DNA of 64,000 nucleotides from NCBI GenBank assembly GCA_025699025.1, contig JAILWJ010000001.1, positions 1 through 64,000 of the forward strand, in the 5' to 3' direction. This DNA comes from Nitrosarchaeum sp. GTDB lineage: Archaea; Thermoproteota; Nitrososphaeria; Nitrososphaerales; Nitrosopumilaceae. This document shows, one piece after another, positions 4,951-12,296 of the stretch. Made by a program: the position numbers and the translations under genes. The notes below the pieces were generated by a model. That model saw nothing but the letters and a program-made list of their open reading frames with translations. It did no database searches and was not told the DNA's origin. How positions within the stretch are numbered: position 1 is the first letter of the stretch; each line of letters begins with the position of its first letter.

Positions 4951-5133
4951 ATGGCAACTCACGGTTCGCTTACAAAAGCAGGCAAAGTAAGAGGACAAAC
5001 CCCAAAAGTTGAAGGAAGAAAGATAGTTGGTACAAACTCTAGCCTTAGAAACAAGAGCAACTTCAAAAAGAGATTCGTTCTTGGCAGAGTACCTGGGCAA
5101 AACAAACCCGGACAACGAAGAAAGAGACGATAG
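4951..5133 (+). CDS. rps30e: Small ribosomal subunit protein S30e
   Basis: This is a 60-residue, very basic protein with HGSLTKAGKVRGQTPKV near the N-terminus, which matches the S30e (FAU) core HGSLxRAGKVRGQTPKV, and a basic tail ending RRKRR. S30e occurs in archaea and eukaryotes but not bacteria. A TATA-like ACATAAAT lies about 26 nt before the ATG at 4951, so the gene is probably monocistronic and leaderless. Confidence 0.92.
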   Translation: MATHGSLTKAGKVRGQTPKVEGRKIVGTNSSLRNKSNFKKRFVLGRVPGQNKPGQRRKRR

Positions 5134-5250: not shown

Positions 5251-5610
5251 ATGGATTTCAAAGGCTTCCTGTCTTCTATGTCTCTTTTTTTCATTGCCGG
5301 ATTGTGTGAGATTGGTGGCGGTTATCTGGTTTGGCTGTGGCTGCGTGATGATTTTGGTTTTGTAATTGGCTCCGTTGGTGGTTTTGTTTTGTTTCTTTAC
5401 GGGATTGTACCGACATTTCAGAAAACCCACTTTCACAGAATCTATGCGGCATATGGCGGAGTCTTTATTGTAATGTCTGTCTTTTGGGGATGGCTAATTG
5501 ACGGAGTCATGCCTGATAATTATGACATTCTTGGGGCAGTCATTGCAGTAGTCGGTGTACTGATAATTTTTTACTATCCAAGAAAGGGTGAGAAGATCTG
5601 GTCGAAGTAG
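5251..5610 (+). CDS. UPF0060 (YnfA-like) small membrane protein, copy 1
   Basis: The 119-residue protein has four predicted membrane segments and family signatures FFIAGLCEIGGGYLVWLWL, YGIVPTFQ and RIYAAYGGVFIVMSVFWGW. YnfA relatives belong near the small multidrug resistance fold, where subunits pair as dimers. The next gene is a diverged copy that begins on the last base of this one, so a two-gene operon making a heterodimer is possible. Substrate unknown. Confidence 0.85.
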   Translation: MDFKGFLSSMSLFFIAGLCEIGGGYLVWLWLRDDFGFVIGSVGGFVLFLYGIVPTFQKTHFHRIYAAYGGVFIVMSVFWGWLIDGVMPDNYDILGAVIAVVGVLIIFYYPRKGEKIWSK

Positions 5611-5930
5611 TGCTCTCAACTCTGGGACTGTTCTTTTTTGCTGCATTGCTGGAAATTGGCGGTGGCTATCTCGTATGGAAGTGGCTGCGTGATCACAAGG
5701 GGAAAATATTTGGGCTTGTCGGCGGCTTGGTATTGTTTACTTATGGGATTGTCATGACATTTCAGCCTGCAGATTTTGGGAAGGTGTATGCCACATATGG
5801 TGGGATCTTTGTCGTGTCCTCAATAATCTGGGGATACTGGGTGGATAAGAAAAGACCCGACAGGTTTGAGATAATTGGCTCAATGGTTGTCTTGGTAGGC
5901 GTTGCTGTGATGTTTTATTTTCCAAGATAA
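5610..5930 (+). CDS. UPF0060 (YnfA-like) small membrane protein, copy 2
   Basis: The 106-residue paralogue has the same signatures: FFFAALLEIGGGYLVWKWLR, YGIVMTFQ, KVYATYGGIFVVSSIIWGY. It starts with GTG at 5610, sharing one base with the stop codon of copy 1, which means tight translational coupling. Charged residues at the loop and C-terminus differ from copy 1 (WVDKKRPDRFE against WLIDGVMPDNYD), as expected if the two insert with different topology. Confidence 0.85.
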   Translation: MLSTLGLFFFAALLEIGGGYLVWKWLRDHKGKIFGLVGGLVLFTYGIVMTFQPADFGKVYATYGGIFVVSSIIWGYWVDKKRPDRFEIIGSMVVLVGVAVMFYFPR

Positions 5931-5931
5931 T

Positions 5932-6109
5932 GTAGTTCGTGGAATCAAGAAGGATTGTTCTGATTATTGATGGCTGCCAAATTTATCATAATTATTTGAG
6001 AAATCACATGGGGCTTGATGGTAAGACACCAAGTGAGGCATGTGGTATTACTATTGAAGGAGATAACAAGTGGAAGACATTGATCCAAAACGCAAGCGTA
6101 AAATGCTAA
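5932..6109 (+). pseudogene. Decayed C-terminal fragment of the DDE transposase found at 8586-9722
   Basis: Translation in two frames gives VVRGIKKDCS and then, after a frameshift, DGCQIYHNYLRNHMGLDGKT followed by NKWKTLIQNA. This lines up with the tail of the intact transposase (MRGIKKDDSVIFDGYQIYHNYI, GLEGKT, NKWITLIQNA). There is no start and the upstream part is gone. It is what remains of an older copy of the same element type, directly before the matrixin gene. Confidence 0.88.
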
Positions 6110-6154: not shown

Positions 6155-7069
6155 ATGAAATATGTTGGTAGGGATACTGACAGAAAGAATCCACTAGATA
6201 GCCTTCCGCAAATAGACGATGATGAAGCAAATGTCATGGAAGAAATTCAATCGGCAATAAAAAATATAGAAGACAACCAGAAAAACCTGACCAAAACAAT
6301 CAGAATAAAATCTACAATCATAATGGGCGTAATTGCAGTATTTGCAATAATCATAGCAGTGGTCATGACTCAGGTTTTGATACCTAGTGGCGTTTTTGAA
6401 ATCAGTGGAACACTAAAAGATGAAATGACAAGCGGTTATTTCATTGAGAACCTAAAAGGCGACAGAATCGACACGTGGGTATCATGGAAAATAGTAGATG
6501 GTGACTACTTTCACATACACGTAATAGAATCACCCGAGGTCACTCAGGAAAGACTGGACGTAATTAATAATGTGATATATTCGACTGAGACAGTAGAAAT
6601 TCCCAATAGTCTTTTGCATACCTTCCCACAGGGCGAATCATCTACATATTACAAGGGTTGGGCAGGTGCATTAGGAACAATATCTGGTACAAAATTCCCT
6701 GTTCCAATTCACTATCATTCAGCAATCACTGATTCTGGAACTGGACAGATCACAATAAGACTTACCAACCTGAAAAATGCAGATGGATACAGCGGATATA
6801 CAAGATCACAAGTGGATGAATCAAACAACCAGATACTGAAATCACAAATTACGATATTCAATGTTGACAATCTGAGTTTGAAAGAATTGGAGGCAATCAC
6901 AAGACATGAACTAGGACACGCATTTGGTCTTGCACATTCTGATAACCCAGATGATTTGATGTATCCTACCATCAAAACCAATTTTCCGTACATCAATCCA
7001 TGCAATGTTCAGGCAATTGCAGAACTATACGACGGCAATGAAAAAGGCACTGTAATTTGTGAAAACTAG
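6155..7069 (+). CDS. Membrane-anchored matrixin-like metalloprotease, paralogue 1
   Basis: The 304-residue protein has a cytosolic N-terminal helix (about 25-50), one membrane segment (about 53-75) and an extracellular domain ending in the metzincin zinc site HELGHAFGLAH (H251, H255, H261) with a Met-turn DDLMYPT at M269. That is the matrixin (M10) pattern. Upstream, ENLKGDRIDTWVSWKIVDG and YKGWAGALG are shared with the paralogues at 41684-42691 and 49044-49946. Unlike those, this copy has no kinase beside it: it lies between a transposase remnant and an orphan element end, so it may be old transposon cargo. The promoter contains the palindrome AATACTAGTATT (6129-6140). Substrate unknown. Confidence 0.88.
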   Translation: MKYVGRDTDRKNPLDSLPQIDDDEANVMEEIQSAIKNIEDNQKNLTKTIRIKSTIIMGVIAVFAIIIAVVMTQVLIPSGVFEISGTLKDEMTSGYFIENLKGDRIDTWVSWKIVDGDYFHIHVIESPEVTQERLDVINNVIYSTETVEIPNSLLHTFPQGESSTYYKGWAGALGTISGTKFPVPIHYHSAITDSGTGQITIRLTNLKNADGYSGYTRSQVDESNNQILKSQITIFNVDNLSLKELEAITRHELGHAFGLAHSDNPDDLMYPTIKTNFPYINPCNVQAIAELYDGNEKGTVICEN

Positions 7070-7072
7070 ATA

Positions 7073-7121
7073 CCCGACGAAACTTTACACGTACAAGATC
7101 CGACGAAGACTTGACAGAACC
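7073..7121. repeat. Orphan right end of an older element
   Basis: CCCGAC, then ACTTTACACG and a final ACTTGACAGAACC repeat, in the same direction, the right end of the intact element (11054-11109). It directly abuts the 8-bp target copy at 7122-7129. This indicates that an earlier element, now largely lost, ended here. Confidence 0.75.
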
Positions 7122-7129
7122 CCCAAGCG
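7122..7129. repeat. Target-site duplication, left copy
   Basis: CCCAAGCG lies between the orphan right end and the left inverted repeat. The second copy is at 11110-11117. Only the boundary that makes the repeats start GGTTCTGT gives an exact 8-bp match. Confidence 0.82.
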
Positions 7130-7196
7130 GGTTCTGTAAAGATATGGGGACATTGATCAAAATATTCTATCTGTAAAGTGTCGGGACATGGGTTAA
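7130..7196 (+). repeat. Left terminal inverted repeat
   Basis: This is the 67-bp left end, aligning without gaps to the reverse complement of 11043-11109. Positions 43-67 are identical, the first eight are identical, and the middle is diverged. Confidence 0.88.
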
Positions 7197-7294
7197 CTCA
7201 CGCCTAATTTTTACATAAATATTTGACTTTATTCATTGATAATGTCTCATAAAGTTTAACTGTGACTAATTTAGGACTCATATTGGAATAAAAT

Positions 7295-8128
7295 ATGACT
7301 ATCTGTGTAGGTGCGATTAGTAAAAATTCTAATGCTGCAGAACAGTATGCTTTAGTTGCATCCGATAGAATGGTTACTCTTTCATTACCTAGTATTGAAT
7401 GGGAACAAAATGTTTCTAAAACCCTACCAATATCTGATAATTGTGTTGCTGCAACTGCAGGATCTGCAATCGCATTTACAGAGATTTTACGAAATGCCAA
7501 ACCTAAGATCAATGGATTAAAAAAGAAAAACATAGCAGAAATAGTAGATATTATTCGTCAAGAGTATAATGAAGCCAGATTAAAAAAAATAGAAGAAGAT
7601 ATTCTTTCAAAAATTGGCTTAACATTAAAAACATTTTATGAAGGAAATCAAGTTATTTCACCTCAAATTGTTCAAACAGTAATGGATGCTATGGCAAAAT
7701 TCAACTATGGATTATCAATTTTAATTGCAGGTGTAGACGATTCAGGAGCACATATTTACAGAATAGACAATCCTGCACGAGCTGATTGTTTTGATTCTAT
7801 AGGATATTGTGCAATAGGTAGTGGAGATCTTCATGCATTAACTACTTTTATCGCAAATGATTATGATCCAAATTTAGATCTTAATCATGTTTGTGCCATG
7901 ACATATGAATCAAAAAAACGTAGTGAAAAGGCTCAGGGAGTTGGTGAAAAAAGCGATCTTTACATAATATGTGATAGTAGAGTAGTAAAGATGCCTTCTG
8001 ATGCAATTGAAAAGTTAGATAGCATCTACTTAATGCGTGCAGAACAAGAAAAGAAAGTAGTGGCAGATATTCAAAACGAAATTGAAAAGTTAGATATTGA
8101 GAAAATAGAAAAGAATGGTCGAGTCTAG
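7295..8128 (+). CDS. Proteasome/HslV-like Ntn-hydrolase peptidase carried on the transposon
   Basis: The 277-residue protein begins MTICVGAISK, so Thr2 becomes the N-terminal nucleophile once Met is removed, without a propeptide. It then shows the proteasome-beta/HslV pattern: YALVASDRMVT (Asp24, equivalent of D17), SKTLP (Lys42, equivalent of K33), VAATAGSAIAFTEI, and a late YCAIGSGDLHALTTF matching the GSG loop of HslV. About 45 residues of charged helix follow the core, which HslV and beta subunits lack. No ATPase or alpha-type partner is encoded in the element. This is not the core proteasome; substrate and oligomer are unknown. Cargo for protein turnover or defence is inference. Confidence 0.8.
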   Translation: MTICVGAISKNSNAAEQYALVASDRMVTLSLPSIEWEQNVSKTLPISDNCVAATAGSAIAFTEILRNAKPKINGLKKKNIAEIVDIIRQEYNEARLKKIEEDILSKIGLTLKTFYEGNQVISPQIVQTVMDAMAKFNYGLSILIAGVDDSGAHIYRIDNPARADCFDSIGYCAIGSGDLHALTTFIANDYDPNLDLNHVCAMTYESKKRSEKAQGVGEKSDLYIICDSRVVKMPSDAIEKLDSIYLMRAEQEKKVVADIQNEIEKLDIEKIEKNGRV

Positions 8129-8310
8129 TTCTCTAGCAATATATTCTCATCATCATCCAATAATGGATTTGAGACAAATCCGTTAAATTGTGTTGATTCA
8201 TTTTGCTGAGAACTGGCTTTTTCAAATAACACGCCGTTATTAGTCAATGTGTTTGACTCTGAATTTGTATTATTTAATAGTAGTGATCTTTTTTTGTACA
8301 TTTTACTCAA
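8125..8310 (-). CDS. Small hypothetical protein
   Basis: This 61-codon frame is rich in Asn, Ser and Leu (LLLNNTNSESNTLTNN) and meets the peptidase gene tail to tail with a 4-bp overlap. No domain is recognised. The first Met may be at 8310 or 8301. The even spacing to the RHH gene upstream on the same strand supports a real gene only weakly. Confidence 0.4.
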   Translation of the reverse strand: MSKMYKKRSLLLNNTNSESNTLTNNGVLFEKASSQQNESTQFNGFVSNPLLDDDENILLEN

Positions 8311-8370
8311 TAATATTACGTGTTCTTCACATTAAAGTAATACGCAGTATTATCAAAGTACAGAATAACT

Positions 8371-8511
8371 TTATGAGTTGATTTCAAGTTCATTCTTTAT
8401 TGCATTATTCAAAAACTCTGCTGCTGTAATTCCACGCTTAATAGCCTCAATTTTCGCTTGTTTCCATAATTCTTCATCTATCTTAATTGAAGTCACTATT
8501 AATTCTCCCAT
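8371..8511 (-). CDS. Ribbon-helix-helix (CopG/Arc-type) regulator
   Basis: The 46-residue protein MGELIVTSIKIDEELWKQAK has the RHH layout: a beta strand (IVTSIKID) followed by two helices (EELWKQAKIEAIKRG, TAAEFLNNAIKNELE). It is divergent from the transposase gene, and the space between them carries iterated TACTAC/GTAGTA sequences. It is probably an autoregulator and transposase repressor, or the antitoxin-like half of a pair. Confidence 0.75.
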   Translation of the reverse strand: MGELIVTSIKIDEELWKQAKIEAIKRGITAAEFLNNAIKNELEINS

Positions 8512-8559
8512 ATCAAATATTTACTGATCGTAGTATTTAATTATATTAGTATAACTATT

Positions 8560-8587
8560 AATACTACTACAATACTACTAGTAGTAT
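8560..8587. promoter_or_regulatory. Probable operator in the RHH-transposase divergent promoter
   Basis: AATACTACTA occurs twice in direct order (8560-8569, 8571-8580), and the second copy is half of the 16-bp perfect palindrome ATACTACTAGTAGTAT (8572-8587), which runs into the transposase ATG at 8586. A protein bound here would block transcription start and translation. The RHH protein next door is the obvious candidate. Confidence 0.6.
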
Positions 8588-9722
8588 GGAAACAAATCCA
8601 CGCCAAGAAAAAGGAAAAGAGATAGCAAAACGACAGGACATTATTAGAGTTTCAGATATTCACTATAGAGTACATTCCCAGACAACAAACAGAGAGTATG
8701 ATGTTATCAAGGTCGGGGAGGATTTCACCTGTACCTGTCCAGATCACAAGTTCAGACACGTTTGCTGTAAGCATATTCATGGCGTGGAATATTCATTGAG
8801 ATTCAGAGAGGAAGTAAGAAAACAAAATACCATAACACTAGAACCAATCAACGTTTCATCATGTCCAAAATGTCTATCATCTAATATCACAAAACATGGA
8901 ATCAGACACAACAAGTATGGAGACATTCAAAGATATTCCTGCAAGAACTGCCACAAGAGATTCTCAATAAACATCGGATTTGAAAAGATGAGGGCAACAC
9001 CTCAGGCTATCACTTCAGCCATGCAACTATACTTTACTGGTGAATCACTTAGAAGCGTGCAGAAATTCCTTAGATTACAAGGTGTAGATGTATCTCATCA
9101 GACTATCCTAAACTGGATTACCAAGTATACCAAAGTCATGAAATCATACCTAGACAAGATAACACCACAAGTAGGTAATGCATGGAGGGCAGATGAAGTA
9201 TGGACAAAAGTAAGAGGGGATCTAAAGTATCTATTTGCTTTGATAGATGACGAAACAAGATGGTGGTTAGCCAAAGAGGTAGCAACCTCAAAGGAAAAGC
9301 ATGATGCAAGTGGGTTATTCAGACAAGCCAAAGAGATTGCAGGAACTAGACCAAAGGTCATCATTACAGATGGATTGAGATCATATCAGGATGCTTACAA
9401 AAAGGAGTTTTGGACGATAAACAGACAGGATAGGACATTACACATTCGCCATATACACTTGAAAGGGGACATGAATAACAATAAGATGGAGAGATTCAAT
9501 GGAGAGTTTAGGGATAGAGAAAAGGTAATGCGAGGAATCAAAAAAGATGATTCAGTTATTTTTGATGGTTATCAGATTTATCACAATTACATCCGAGAAC
9601 ATCAGGGATTGGAGGGTAAGACTCCAGCTGATAAAGTAGGAATTGATGTTAAAGGAAATAATAAATGGATTACGTTGATTCAAAATGCAAAAAAGCATAT
9701 GAAAAAATCAAATTCCGAATAA
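8586..9722 (+). CDS. DDE transposase with N-terminal SWIM zinc finger (IS6-like)
   Basis: The 378-residue protein contains, in order: a SWIM-type finger (C49, C51, C61, H63 in FTCTCPDHKFRHVCCKH), a second zinc ribbon (C93, C96, C119, C122), a helix-turn-helix (SLRSVQKFLRLQGVDVSHQT) and an RNase H-like catalytic core with RADEVW (D203), ITDG (D262) and NKMERFNGEFRDREK (E302). The core fits IS6-family DDE enzymes; the added SWIM finger is not part of classical bacterial IS6 transposases. The frame is intact. A decayed relative of its C-terminus lies at 5932-6109. Confidence 0.9.
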   Translation: METNPRQEKGKEIAKRQDIIRVSDIHYRVHSQTTNREYDVIKVGEDFTCTCPDHKFRHVCCKHIHGVEYSLRFREEVRKQNTITLEPINVSSCPKCLSSNITKHGIRHNKYGDIQRYSCKNCHKRFSINIGFEKMRATPQAITSAMQLYFTGESLRSVQKFLRLQGVDVSHQTILNWITKYTKVMKSYLDKITPQVGNAWRADEVWTKVRGDLKYLFALIDDETRWWLAKEVATSKEKHDASGLFRQAKEIAGTRPKVIITDGLRSYQDAYKKEFWTINRQDRTLHIRHIHLKGDMNNNKMERFNGEFRDREKVMRGIKKDDSVIFDGYQIYHNYIREHQGLEGKTPADKVGIDVKGNNKWITLIQNAKKHMKKSNSE

Positions 9723-9726
9723 AAAA

Positions 9727-9897
9727 TTATTCGAGTTTGAGTGTGATTGTACCGTTTTCAGCACTAATCAAAAATCGTGCACCTTTTTCTATTCCAAGAC
9801 CATCTTTGATCGCTTTTGGAATAATCAAAGCTAAAGAGTCATTGCCATTAGCTTTGTAAACTGTACCTACACCAAAAATTGGTTTTTCCATAGTCAT
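9727..9897 (-). CDS. AbrB/SpoVT-like swapped-hairpin DNA-binding protein
   Basis: This 56-residue protein reads MTMEKPIFGVGTVYKANGND and continues SLALIIPKAIKDGLGIEKGA, the AbrB/MazE fold signature (S-x-x-IPK-x-I-xx-LGI-xx-G). The start is ATG 9897 or 9891. It points towards the transposase and is divergent from the unknown gene at 9981. Such proteins act as transition regulators or antitoxins. Confidence 0.8.
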   Translation of the reverse strand: MTMEKPIFGVGTVYKANGNDSLALIIPKAIKDGLGIEKGARFLISAENGTITLKLE

Positions 9898-9914
9898 ATT
9901 AGATCACATCCCAT

Positions 9915-9960
9915 ATATCAATATTTATATAGTTTAAGCTATATGAATATAGCTAGGAAA
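9915..9960. promoter_or_regulatory. Divergent promoter between the AbrB-like gene and the gene at 9981
   Basis: This AT-rich stretch contains TTTATATAG and the inverted pair ATATAG/CTATAT separated by six bases. It can serve as TATA box and as a binding site for the AbrB-like protein. A purine-rich AAAGGTGTGAG before ATG 9981 looks like a ribosome binding site. Confidence 0.4.
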
Positions 9961-9980
9961 TTAGAAAGGTGTGAGAACAA

Positions 9981-10583
9981 ATGTCGATAATAAACACGTC
10001 AAAAACCAAATTAATGTTCGAGTTAAGAAAAAAATATCCACGTTTACAGATTGTGGATGAAATAGCATCTGTAATACTTGCTGGTGAAGCATTAGGGGCT
10101 ATTGATGAAACACGCAAACGTAAAAGATGGGAATTTATCAAAAATGGTGCAAAAGATGCCGCATTTTATGCAGCATATAAAAAATATGGATTATTAGTAA
10201 AAAAAGAGAAGGAACTCAAAAGATATTTTGAATACAAAAGACCACATGCCAACAGGTTAGATAACAATACGGCAATACTAAATGCATTAAAATATGAACA
10301 AACAAAACTTTATGCCCATATGTTATCAGATCACAATGTACGAAATGCTATTGTGAAAACGTTATCTTTACCATCTAAAGATCTAACTTCAATTAAAAGA
10401 GCTATTGAAAAAGGAAGTTTATATGAACAACTTAATGTTTATGGAAAAATACTCCGATTTCTCATGGATGAAAAATTATATCATCAACGTCACGATTACT
10501 ACATAATAGGATTCAGAAATATACCCCATCATTATTGGCTTAGCAAAGTAGCCATAAAATTATTAGCAGATGCAAAAAAGTGA
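9981..10583 (+). CDS. Hypothetical protein of the transposon
   Basis: This is a 200-residue, basic, largely helical protein without membrane segments. Notable stretches are KRKRWEFIKNGAKDAAFYAA, KKYGLLVKKEKELKRYF and the histidine-rich YHQRHDYYIIGFRNIPHHYW near the C-terminus. I recognise no family. It is followed after four bases by the TM-protein gene, so the two are likely made together. Confidence 0.65.
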   Translation: MSIINTSKTKLMFELRKKYPRLQIVDEIASVILAGEALGAIDETRKRKRWEFIKNGAKDAAFYAAYKKYGLLVKKEKELKRYFEYKRPHANRLDNNTAILNALKYEQTKLYAHMLSDHNVRNAIVKTLSLPSKDLTSIKRAIEKGSLYEQLNVYGKILRFLMDEKLYHQRHDYYIIGFRNIPHHYWLSKVAIKLLADAKK

Positions 10584-10587
10584 GAAT

Positions 10588-11046
10588 ATGATCAAGAATG
10601 ATCCACATCACTGTCATTGTTTTAAAATTCTAAATACTCATTTTGATTTATTCAGAAATAAATTAGAACAGAATGGATTTACAGATGGACTTCAAATGCC
10701 AAATGGACAATTATTTGGAAGAATCAAAAAAATCAATGCTGAAGAACAAATGCATGTTAAATTAATGCAATCAGGAATTATTGAAGCAGAGATAGAACCA
10801 TCACAAGATTATCCTGTGGCACATTTGAATCAAAAACACAGTTATTCTGCACATAACCAATTACAAGAATTACTCAATCAATTTGGTATTCCGCATATAC
10901 GTAATTGGTCAATTCCCCTTTGGTGTATTCGACCGATTATTGTAAAACCATTCAGACCTACTCATGTCAAGGTTATTGCAGGCGTCATCGTTGTCATACT
11001 ATTTGCAGGCGTTCTAGGATATGCTTTGGCAAAAAGTAAGAATTAA
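10588..11046 (+). CDS. Hypothetical protein with C-terminal membrane anchor
   Basis: The soluble part starts MIKNDPHHCHCFKILNTHFD and contains a His-Cys cluster (HHCHC) and KHSYSAHNQLQELLNQFGIP. One membrane segment (VKVIAGVIVVILFAGVLGYA) lies near the end, so the protein is tail-anchored with its bulk in the cytosol. The in-frame ATG at 10570 would overlap the previous gene; I prefer ATG 10588, four bases after its stop. The last codons lie inside the right inverted repeat. Function unknown. Confidence 0.6.
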   Translation: MIKNDPHHCHCFKILNTHFDLFRNKLEQNGFTDGLQMPNGQLFGRIKKINAEEQMHVKLMQSGIIEAEIEPSQDYPVAHLNQKHSYSAHNQLQELLNQFGIPHIRNWSIPLWCIRPIIVKPFRPTHVKVIAGVIVVILFAGVLGYALAKSKN

Positions 11047-11109
11047 CCCATGTCCCGACACTTTACACGCATAAGATCTACACTAAACACCCGATAACTT
11101 GACAGAACC
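11043..11109 (-). repeat. Right terminal inverted repeat
   Basis: This is the 67-bp right end. It overlaps the last four bases of the stop region of the TM-protein gene ending at 11046, so that gene reaches into the repeat. Confidence 0.88.
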
Positions 11110-11117
11110 CCCAAGCG
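11110..11117. repeat. Target-site duplication, right copy
   Basis: CCCAAGCG follows the right inverted repeat and leads directly into the radA promoter region. Confidence 0.82.
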
Positions 11118-11123
11118 GTAACC

Positions 11124-11154
11124 TTATAAAGTAATGGTACCGTACCATACGGTA
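11124..11154 (+). promoter_or_regulatory. radA promoter with start-site palindrome
   Basis: TATA box TTATAAAG (11124-11131) is 26 nt before the radA ATG, so the mRNA should be leaderless. The inverted repeat TACCGTA-CCA-TACGGTA (11138-11154) covers the expected transcription start and touches the ATG. The transposon's target duplication ends seven bases upstream of the TATA box. Confidence 0.6.
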
Positions 11155-12296
11155 TGGTAGAAGATTTAAGATTAGATAGTTTAGAGGGCGTAGGTCCTGT
11201 AACTACTAGAAAATTATCCGACGCAGGTGTCCACAATATCATGGATCTCATAGTCAGGGGTCCAGTAGAGATTGCAGAAATAACTGGAATGGAAAAGGAC
11301 ACGGCTGAAAAGATTGTCAACAAAGCCCGACAGCATCTAGTTGAAGGAGGCTTGCTAGCTAAAGATTTTGTTAGTGCAAGCGAGATTTACAAGCACAGAC
11401 AGTCTATTGGCAAAATCACGACTGGTACAAACTGCCTTGATACTCTGTTTGATGGCGGTATAGAGACCCAAGCACTCACCGAAGTCTACGGAGAGTTTGG
11501 TTGTGGAAAAACACAATTTGCTCACACAATGTCTGTGATGGTTCAAAAGCCAAAAGAAGAGGGCGGTCTAAACGGCTCTGTTCTGTACATTGATACTGAG
11601 AACACTTTCAGACCTGAAAGAATCGTATCCATTGCACAAGCACACGGAATGGATCCAGAAAAGGTTCTTGACCGCATCATCGTGGCACGTGCATACAACA
11701 GTGCACACCAAACACTGATCCTGGAAGAAGCAGGACCAGTAATCGAAGAAAATAACGTAAAACTAATAGTCGCAGACTCTGCGGTGGGTCTGTTCCGCTC
11801 TGAATACCTTGGAAGAGGAACACTCTCAAACAGACAACAGAAACTAAATCACTTTGTTCATCTATTGTCTAGAATTGCAGAGACGTACAACTGTGCAGCA
11901 ATTGCGACAAACCAAGTCATGGCATCACCTGACGTGTTCTTTGGTGACCCTACTCGCCCAATTGGTGGAAACGTAGTTGCACACACAAGTACCTATAGAA
12001 TCTACTTTAAGAAATCAGGCAAAAAGAGAATTGCAAGAATGGTTGACAGTCCTCATCACCCAGAGGAAGAAGTAATCTTTGCACTAGGTGAGGCTGGAGT
12101 GATTGATCCAGAAGATGCCGAAAAGAAGACAAAAAAGACAACCAAAAAGGCAACCTCTAAAAAAGCAGCAGACTCTGATGAAGAGACTGTAGAATCAGTC
12201 GAGGTGGAAACACCAGCAGAATCATCTGATGCTGACACCACTGTTGAATCCGCAACAGAAGCACCTGATGATGAATCAGAACCACAAGAAGAATAA
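11154..12296 (+). CDS. radA: RadA recombinase
   Basis: RadA forms ATP-dependent filaments on single-stranded DNA for strand exchange in homologous recombination. The N-terminal helix-hairpin-helix domain (DSLEGVGPVTTRKLSDAGV) and linker are followed by the ATPase core with Walker A GEFGCGKTQ, Walker B LIVADSAV, and L1/L2 region (SEYLGRGTLSNRQQKLN, FGDPTRPIGGNVVAHTSTYR). The core ends near residue 320. A 55-60 residue tail follows, first lysine-rich (KKTKKTTKKATSKKA) and then strongly acidic, which makes the protein 380 residues against about 320-350 in most archaea. Confidence 0.96.
   Translation: MVEDLRLDSLEGVGPVTTRKLSDAGVHNIMDLIVRGPVEIAEITGMEKDTAEKIVNKARQHLVEGGLLAKDFVSASEIYKHRQSIGKITTGTNCLDTLFDGGIETQALTEVYGEFGCGKTQFAHTMSVMVQKPKEEGGLNGSVLYIDTENTFRPERIVSIAQAHGMDPEKVLDRIIVARAYNSAHQTLILEEAGPVIEENNVKLIVADSAVGLFRSEYLGRGTLSNRQQKLNHFVHLLSRIAETYNCAAIATNQVMASPDVFFGDPTRPIGGNVVAHTSTYRIYFKKSGKKRIARMVDSPHHPEEEVIFALGEAGVIDPEDAEKKTKKTTKKATSKKAADSDEETVESVEVETPAESSDADTTVESATEAPDDESEPQEE

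Follow-up and report, generated by a model that had tools for sequence, protein, structure and literature searches.

An IS6-related cargo transposon upstream of radA in Nitrosarchaeum and the promoter-proximal insertion of its archaeal family

The rpS30e–radA island and its resident transposon

Between the host genes rpS30e and radA of Nitrosarchaeum sp., a 64,000-nucleotide stretch (positions 1 to 64,000 of contig JAILWJ010000001.1, assembly GCA_025699025.1; hereafter the window) carries a transposon at 7130–11109, which is called element B here. Judged from its sequence, element B is a complete and intact unit transposon with accessory genes, belonging to an archaeal family related to IS6, and the insertions of this family are very probably not random but aimed at a point that lies a set distance upstream of host-promoter TATA boxes. 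Window coordinates are used throughout, and features lie on the forward strand unless the reverse strand is named.

The borders of element B are defined by terminal inverted repeats at 7130–7196 and 11043–11109 and by an 8-bp target duplication, CCCAAGCG, at 7122–7129 and 11110–11117, which bear out to the base the limits given by an earlier reading of the same DNA (the original prediction). That reading had described ungapped 67-bp repeats with an identical inner 25 bp; repeats of about 67 bp are indeed present (76% identity over 71 bp), with the inner 25 bp only near-identical. The tips read GGTTCTGT, the left repeat contains two copies of a motif 41 bp apart, and the pattern CTTGACAGAACCCCCAAGCGG, allowing at most three mismatches, has two matches in the window and none in shuffled sequence. 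Element B is the single full copy in its genome; a scrap lies just upstream at 5957–6097 and a second transposase relic, frameshifted and with no recognisable tip pair nearby, at C3:116133–116344 (L003, L004, L322).

The transposase gene (8586–9722) is an intact open reading frame (ORF) of 378 amino acids that matches DDE_Tnp_IS240 (6e-17) and the NCBIfam IS6 model (1.6e-34). It contains a SWIM-like Cys/His motif (C49, C51, C61, H63), a zinc ribbon (C93, C96, C119, C122) and a DDE triad, D203-D262-E302, whose residues are retained in 98/98, 97/98 and 98/98 relatives, respectively; both cysteine-rich motifs are nearly invariant among relatives. The element is putatively active. Six further ORFs agree with the count of passenger genes originally made. 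The protease among them finds Pfam support as a proteasome-beta-like N-terminal nucleophile (Ntn) hydrolase of 277 amino acids (7295–8128; Proteasome, 1.1e-9) with a conserved Met-Thr start, the threonine being a candidate nucleophile; counting its own genome, 6 of the 250 host-family genomes have a homologue (5/249 others). The two proposed DNA-binding proteins rest on sub-threshold matches, one to CopG_antitoxin (E 0.02) for a ribbon-helix-helix-like protein of 46 amino acids (8371–8511, reverse strand), the other, just below threshold, to MazE_antitoxin (2.6e-4) and AbrB (1.4e-4) for an AbrB/MazE-like protein of 56 amino acids (9727–9897, reverse strand). The supposed tail-anchored protein, of 158 amino acids (10570–11046), has a C-terminal hydrophobic, membrane-type segment read by eye. 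The remaining two are a 61-amino-acid ORF with no family match (8125–8310, reverse strand) and a 200-amino-acid protein with no assigned function (9981–10583), which is found in two of the 250 genomes and in the second is again the cargo of an element (L076, G223).

Element B is part of a larger island. Its left border is rpS30e (4951–5133; Pfam Ribosomal_S30, 2.8e-10), which adjoins radA in the same-genus genome G012, and on its right lies radA itself (11154–12296; Pfam Rad51, 1.5e-88), the host gene whose promoter is targeted. The radA TATA box, TTATAAAG, at 11124–11131 is conserved in radA promoters and lies 6 bp from the duplication, with the position of the B recognition element (BRE) in between. 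An empty site, which the original prediction had suggested seeking in relatives, is found in G012, where only 83 bp separate the rpS30e stop from the radA start and a single CCAAAACA is orthologously placed, against an interval of about 6.0 kb in the window; same-genus genomes have empty or near-empty sites. Upstream of element B lies a decayed sister, relic A, comprising a C-terminal transposase scrap (5939–6109; 62% identity to transposase residues 323–369, E 1.8e-15) and a right terminal repeat (7078–7121) that ends in ACAGAACC and aligns as a direct repeat with the right end of element B. An M10-type metalloprotease gene between the two (6155–7069; Pfam Peptidase_M10, 3.1e-9) is probably the cargo of relic A. 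The left copy of CCCAAGCG is thus common to two elements, adjoining the right end of relic A as well as intact element B, a complication that the original prediction missed. Since the island reads relic A end, CCCAAGCG, element B, CCCAAGCG, at least two elements have been inserted at one 8-bp site, with element B the closer to radA.

Three further features of the window and its genome deserve mention. Two tandem YnfA/UPF0060 genes (5251–5930; Pfam UPF0060, 1e-38 both) lie within the accumulated insert between rpS30e and relic A, have no counterpart between rpS30e and radA in G012, and are possibly cargo from a still older insertion. A palindrome, TACCGTAnnnTACGGTA, occurs at 11138–11154 and again at C1:686620–686636; it overlaps the radA start in most of the Nitrosopumilaceae radA promoters read, and its second copy overlaps the start of a 115-amino-acid ORF resembling a winged-helix regulator, making it a candidate operator of a small regulon. 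Finally, at 1–217 a 45-bp unit (CTCTATCGCTTCTTCTAGATTCACC...) is repeated four times in tandem, possibly as repetitive coding sequence.

A family of cargo-bearing elements related to IS6

Of 250 host-family genomes, 103 contain relatives of the transposase, and more are found elsewhere in Nitrososphaeria and in Methanoperedens and other archaea; that the element is a one-off oddity is thereby ruled out. Among 102 non-redundant full-length transposase copies, 56 have terminal repeats together with a duplication matching at 7–8 of 8 positions; where ends were picked by the inverted repeat alone, in the redundant set, a perfect 8/8 duplication followed in 64 of 94 cases. The ends carry two copies of a motif of about 18 bp, the inner beginning either 30–32 or 41 bp from the tip, one helical turn apart. 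The CGG-containing half of this motif seems to vary between elements while matching between both copies, perhaps as a recognition code specific to each transposase. In a divergent transposase clade (L134, L139, L140, L152) no 8-bp duplication was found, and the ends or the chemistry may differ there; L134 has an 80-bp inverted repeat beginning GACACTGTTCAG, without matching duplication.

Cargo is the rule in this family. The delimited elements span 1.86–6.77 kb, of which the transposase gene takes up some 1.1 kb. At least one extra ORF of 70 or more amino acids is present in 54 of these 56 elements, with the proviso that the shorter ones may in part not be real genes. In a set of 120 cargo proteins, those with a Pfam match are proteasome-like Ntn hydrolases (5), DNA methylases, HNH and Eco57I-type enzymes, GmrSD, Fic, RelA/SpoT and response regulators, while the majority have no recognised family; matches to PADLOC are mostly to restriction-modification systems and the mad2 model. 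The original prediction was right that cargo is unusual for IS6 and that this is an archaeal cargo transposon; a review of IS6 knows a single passenger-carrying member, ISDsp3 (PMC7986276). A survey of thaumarchaea reported insertion sequences of one or two genes and detected no passenger-carrying composite transposons in archaea (PMC6563490).

The kinship with IS6 itself is distant. The transposase scores 62.5 bits against Pfam DDE_Tnp_IS240, above the cut-off of 27, and 119.4 bits against the NCBIfam IS6 model NF033587, just below the cut-off of 125, so that the IS6-like label stands for a distant relationship. With the IS6/IS26 group, including its long zinc-finger members (clades h and i) and archaeal clades, element B and its relatives share the DDE_Tnp_IS240 domain, GGTTCTGT tips (GG start, cTGT) and an 8-bp duplication. 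They lack its short repeats of 15–20 bp and a transposase filling nearly the whole insertion sequence, and have instead a 378-amino-acid transposase with SWIM-like and zinc-ribbon motifs, ends built of two motif copies, regular cargo and promoter-spaced insertion. The place of archaeal and long-transposase elements in IS6/IS26 is itself disputed, and one analysis would exclude them (PMC6807381). It could be argued that an ordinary IS6 element has merely trapped neighbouring genes and that multiple elements at a site arose by homologous recombination, through which IS6 elements do build such units (PMC7986276). This is scarcely credible here, given the extra ORFs in nearly all delimited relatives and a cargo that is not flanked by a second insertion sequence copy, and the stacked arrays discussed below speak against its second half.

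Insertion next to TATA boxes and the radA hot spot

Where the elements insert was approached by counting TATA-like words reading outward from the duplication, blind to side and with similar flanks collapsed; flank base composition sorted by downstream ORF had given a weak signal, with spurious ORFs on the other flank, and the side-blind count was used instead. The words peak at 5–9 bp, where 29 occur; the 5-bp windows elsewhere average 4.8 and reach 13 at most. A validation set was then drawn from other families with the prediction fixed beforehand: terminal repeats and a duplication were found in 18 of 22 copies, 16 of these 18 being wholly new (L326 and L328 come from genomes of the first set, L062 and L064), and eight TATA-like matches fell at 5–9 bp against a mean of 0.98 and a maximum of 5, with four more at offset 3. 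In both the discovery and the validation sets the element end thus stands at a fixed spacing from the promoter box: the duplication sits some 5–9 bp upstream of a pattern-matched TATA box and so borders on the host promoter's TFB/TBP site. The genes downstream of delimited elements, named by Pfam for radA and by reading sequences for the others, include radA (12/56), a PEFG-type secreted protein (6), an uncharacterised protein of 128 amino acids (5) and TFB (2), and the promoters with single insertions include those of the thermosome, rpL12, rpS13 and a phosphate-binding-type protein.

The same spacing would arise if the transposase read the target DNA itself, as an AT-rich or bendable TATA-like motif, and no transcription factor were involved; AT-rich target motifs are known for some insertion sequence families (ISH6, PMC3942029). 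This reading retains some weight but is unlikely, since the TATA word is far too frequent in these genomes to account for 12 of 56 elements at radA and for the reuse of a few highly expressed or core-gene promoters, and the duplicated 8 bp have no sequence common across sites.

In Nitrosopumilales the elements are found most often at the radA promoter. An element tip, with at most one mismatch, occurs at one position in 36 of 115 distinct radA upstream sequences, against about 0.4 expected by chance; it lies 41–44 bp before the annotated start, varying with the choice of start, and the TATA box follows 6 bp past the duplication. Many elements at this site have decayed, down to remnants of 46, 65 and 88 bp that are still bracketed by the duplication. 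Three such remnants (L257, L274 and L211; 46–88 bp) consist of two element ends between the same 8 bp and resemble scars of internal deletion. One might suppose that insertion is random or simply intergenic and that the copies seen at radA and other promoters are those that survived, being harmless or useful there, and the intact core promoters and long-lived radA relics make such survival plausible. This is very improbable as the explanation, for it fails to account for a single base position in so many radA promoters, for the 5–9 bp spacing across families and for the reuse of identical 8 bp in arrays.

A dedicated radA-site transposon reading the conserved palindrome TACCGTAnnnTACGGTA, in the style of Tn7 at glmS, is also improbable. 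In its favour, no other site is used as often as radA, its palindrome is conserved, and radA users are somewhat clustered on the tree of transposases (10 changes, against 14.1 when shuffled). But the majority of delimited elements have inserted next to promoters of other genes, many of which lack the palindrome; radA is used by clades that are far apart, and L141, a close relative of the window transposase (76% identity), uses another site. More generally in the tree, hot spots are common to distant clades, closely related transposases are found at different sites, and the secreted-protein site shows six label changes, the same as when shuffled. A single radA-specific transposase clade is ruled out by this tree. 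The palindrome as a general target was likewise rejected, most sites being without it and its second exact genomic copy (C1:686620) showing no element in the stretch read.

Moreover, the elements stack. The tip of another element abuts the duplication on 21 of 111 readable sides, against 0.5% expected. At L142, TGTTTCGA stands at every junction of an array made up of three different elements plus one more tip, and at L158 two elements of different subfamilies lie in opposite orientation around CTAAAACA. The transposases of the abutting elements at L142 are 64–69% identical to that of the window, and with the subfamilies and orientation differing at L158 there is little homology to recombine. 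Recombination between such different elements fails as an account, and the arrays point to repeated insertion at a site set by what lies downstream, in which the promoter-proximal copy is presumably the newest.

A proposed mechanism and its place among known systems

Taken together, we consider it highly probable that an IS6-related archaeal cargo transposon inserts a fixed distance upstream of TATA boxes, with radA the favourite site in Nitrosopumilales. TBP/TFB bound at the promoter, or the signature of these factors in the DNA, would be what the transposition complex recognises, and the element ends would be joined where the initiation complex ends on its upstream side, leaving BRE and TATA intact, so that the host gene could still be expressed. 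Each new copy would enter on the promoter side of its predecessor with a further duplication of these 8 bp, and older copies would be pushed outward and then decay. The window fits such serial insertion because relic A is distal and intact element B stands beside radA. Several points weigh against this explanation: the promoters are putative, their TATA boxes having been called by pattern matching in DNA that is AT-rich; 46 of the 102 copies yielded no duplication, through contig ends, decay or different ends; and the radA relics are partly inherited, so that 36 of 115 does not mean 36 independent insertions. A bolder proposal, to which we give an even chance, is that these elements form an undescribed archaeal superfamily of cargo transposons whose transposase docks on TBP/TFB-bound promoters as renewable landing pads, the promoter-proximal arrays being time-ordered banks of accessory and defence genes. 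If transposition is replicative, as in IS26, RadA itself might resolve the cointegrates, which is speculation only.

Promoter-spaced insertion has a bacterial precedent. TnGBS, ISLre2 and ISKra4, which are Mutator-like DDE elements, insert 15–17 bp upstream of sigma-A promoters (-35 box), and contact with the initiation complex has been proposed by analogy with Ty3 (PMC3942029). They share with the present family the fixed distance upstream of promoters and larger elements with other genes. They differ in using bacterial sigma-A promoters and not archaeal TATA/BRE, in inserting mostly in one orientation, both being found here, and probably in transposase superfamily; among the profile models run, the best for our transposase are IS6/IS240, with IS256 at only 33 bits against a cut-off of 150. 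In yeast Ty3, guided by TFIIIB, a promoter-bound factor sets the position of integration, a logic that may apply here too, although Ty3 uses a retrotransposon integrase at Pol III genes. Tn7-like transposons likewise combine a conserved essential-gene neighbourhood as safe site, cargo and serial insertion at one site; unlike them, the present family uses many promoters, and profile scans of the ORFs of element B revealed a single IS6-like transposase and no TnsABCDE-type genes. Thaumarchaeal casposons, in the same host group, can stand as two elements in tandem at one target, ef-2 (PMC6563490); they differ in their Cas1-family integrase, PolB cargo and position at the 3' end of a gene. In its main text that survey describes this casposon pair but no site at the radA promoter, and open-access literature searched for archaeal transposons targeted to radA or TATA contained nothing closer than PMC3942029.

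Overall, the family is large and apparently undescribed. The original prediction of a new class of archaeal transposon holds as to the cargo transposon but overlooked the promoter targeting, the recurrence at radA and the stacking at the same 8 bp. The kind is known, a promoter-targeting DDE cargo transposon; what appears new is its use of archaeal promoters and of an IS6-related transposase. If the proposed account is true, the family would be an archaeal counterpart of Ty3 and TnGBS, with transposition steered by the general transcription machinery, and the region upstream of radA would be a genomic site always worth checking for cargo. It could also offer a route to safe-site integration tools for archaea without genetics. 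Finally, the acquisition of restriction, toxin-antitoxin and other accessory genes by ammonia-oxidising archaea, with no loss of essential ones, would then be accounted for.

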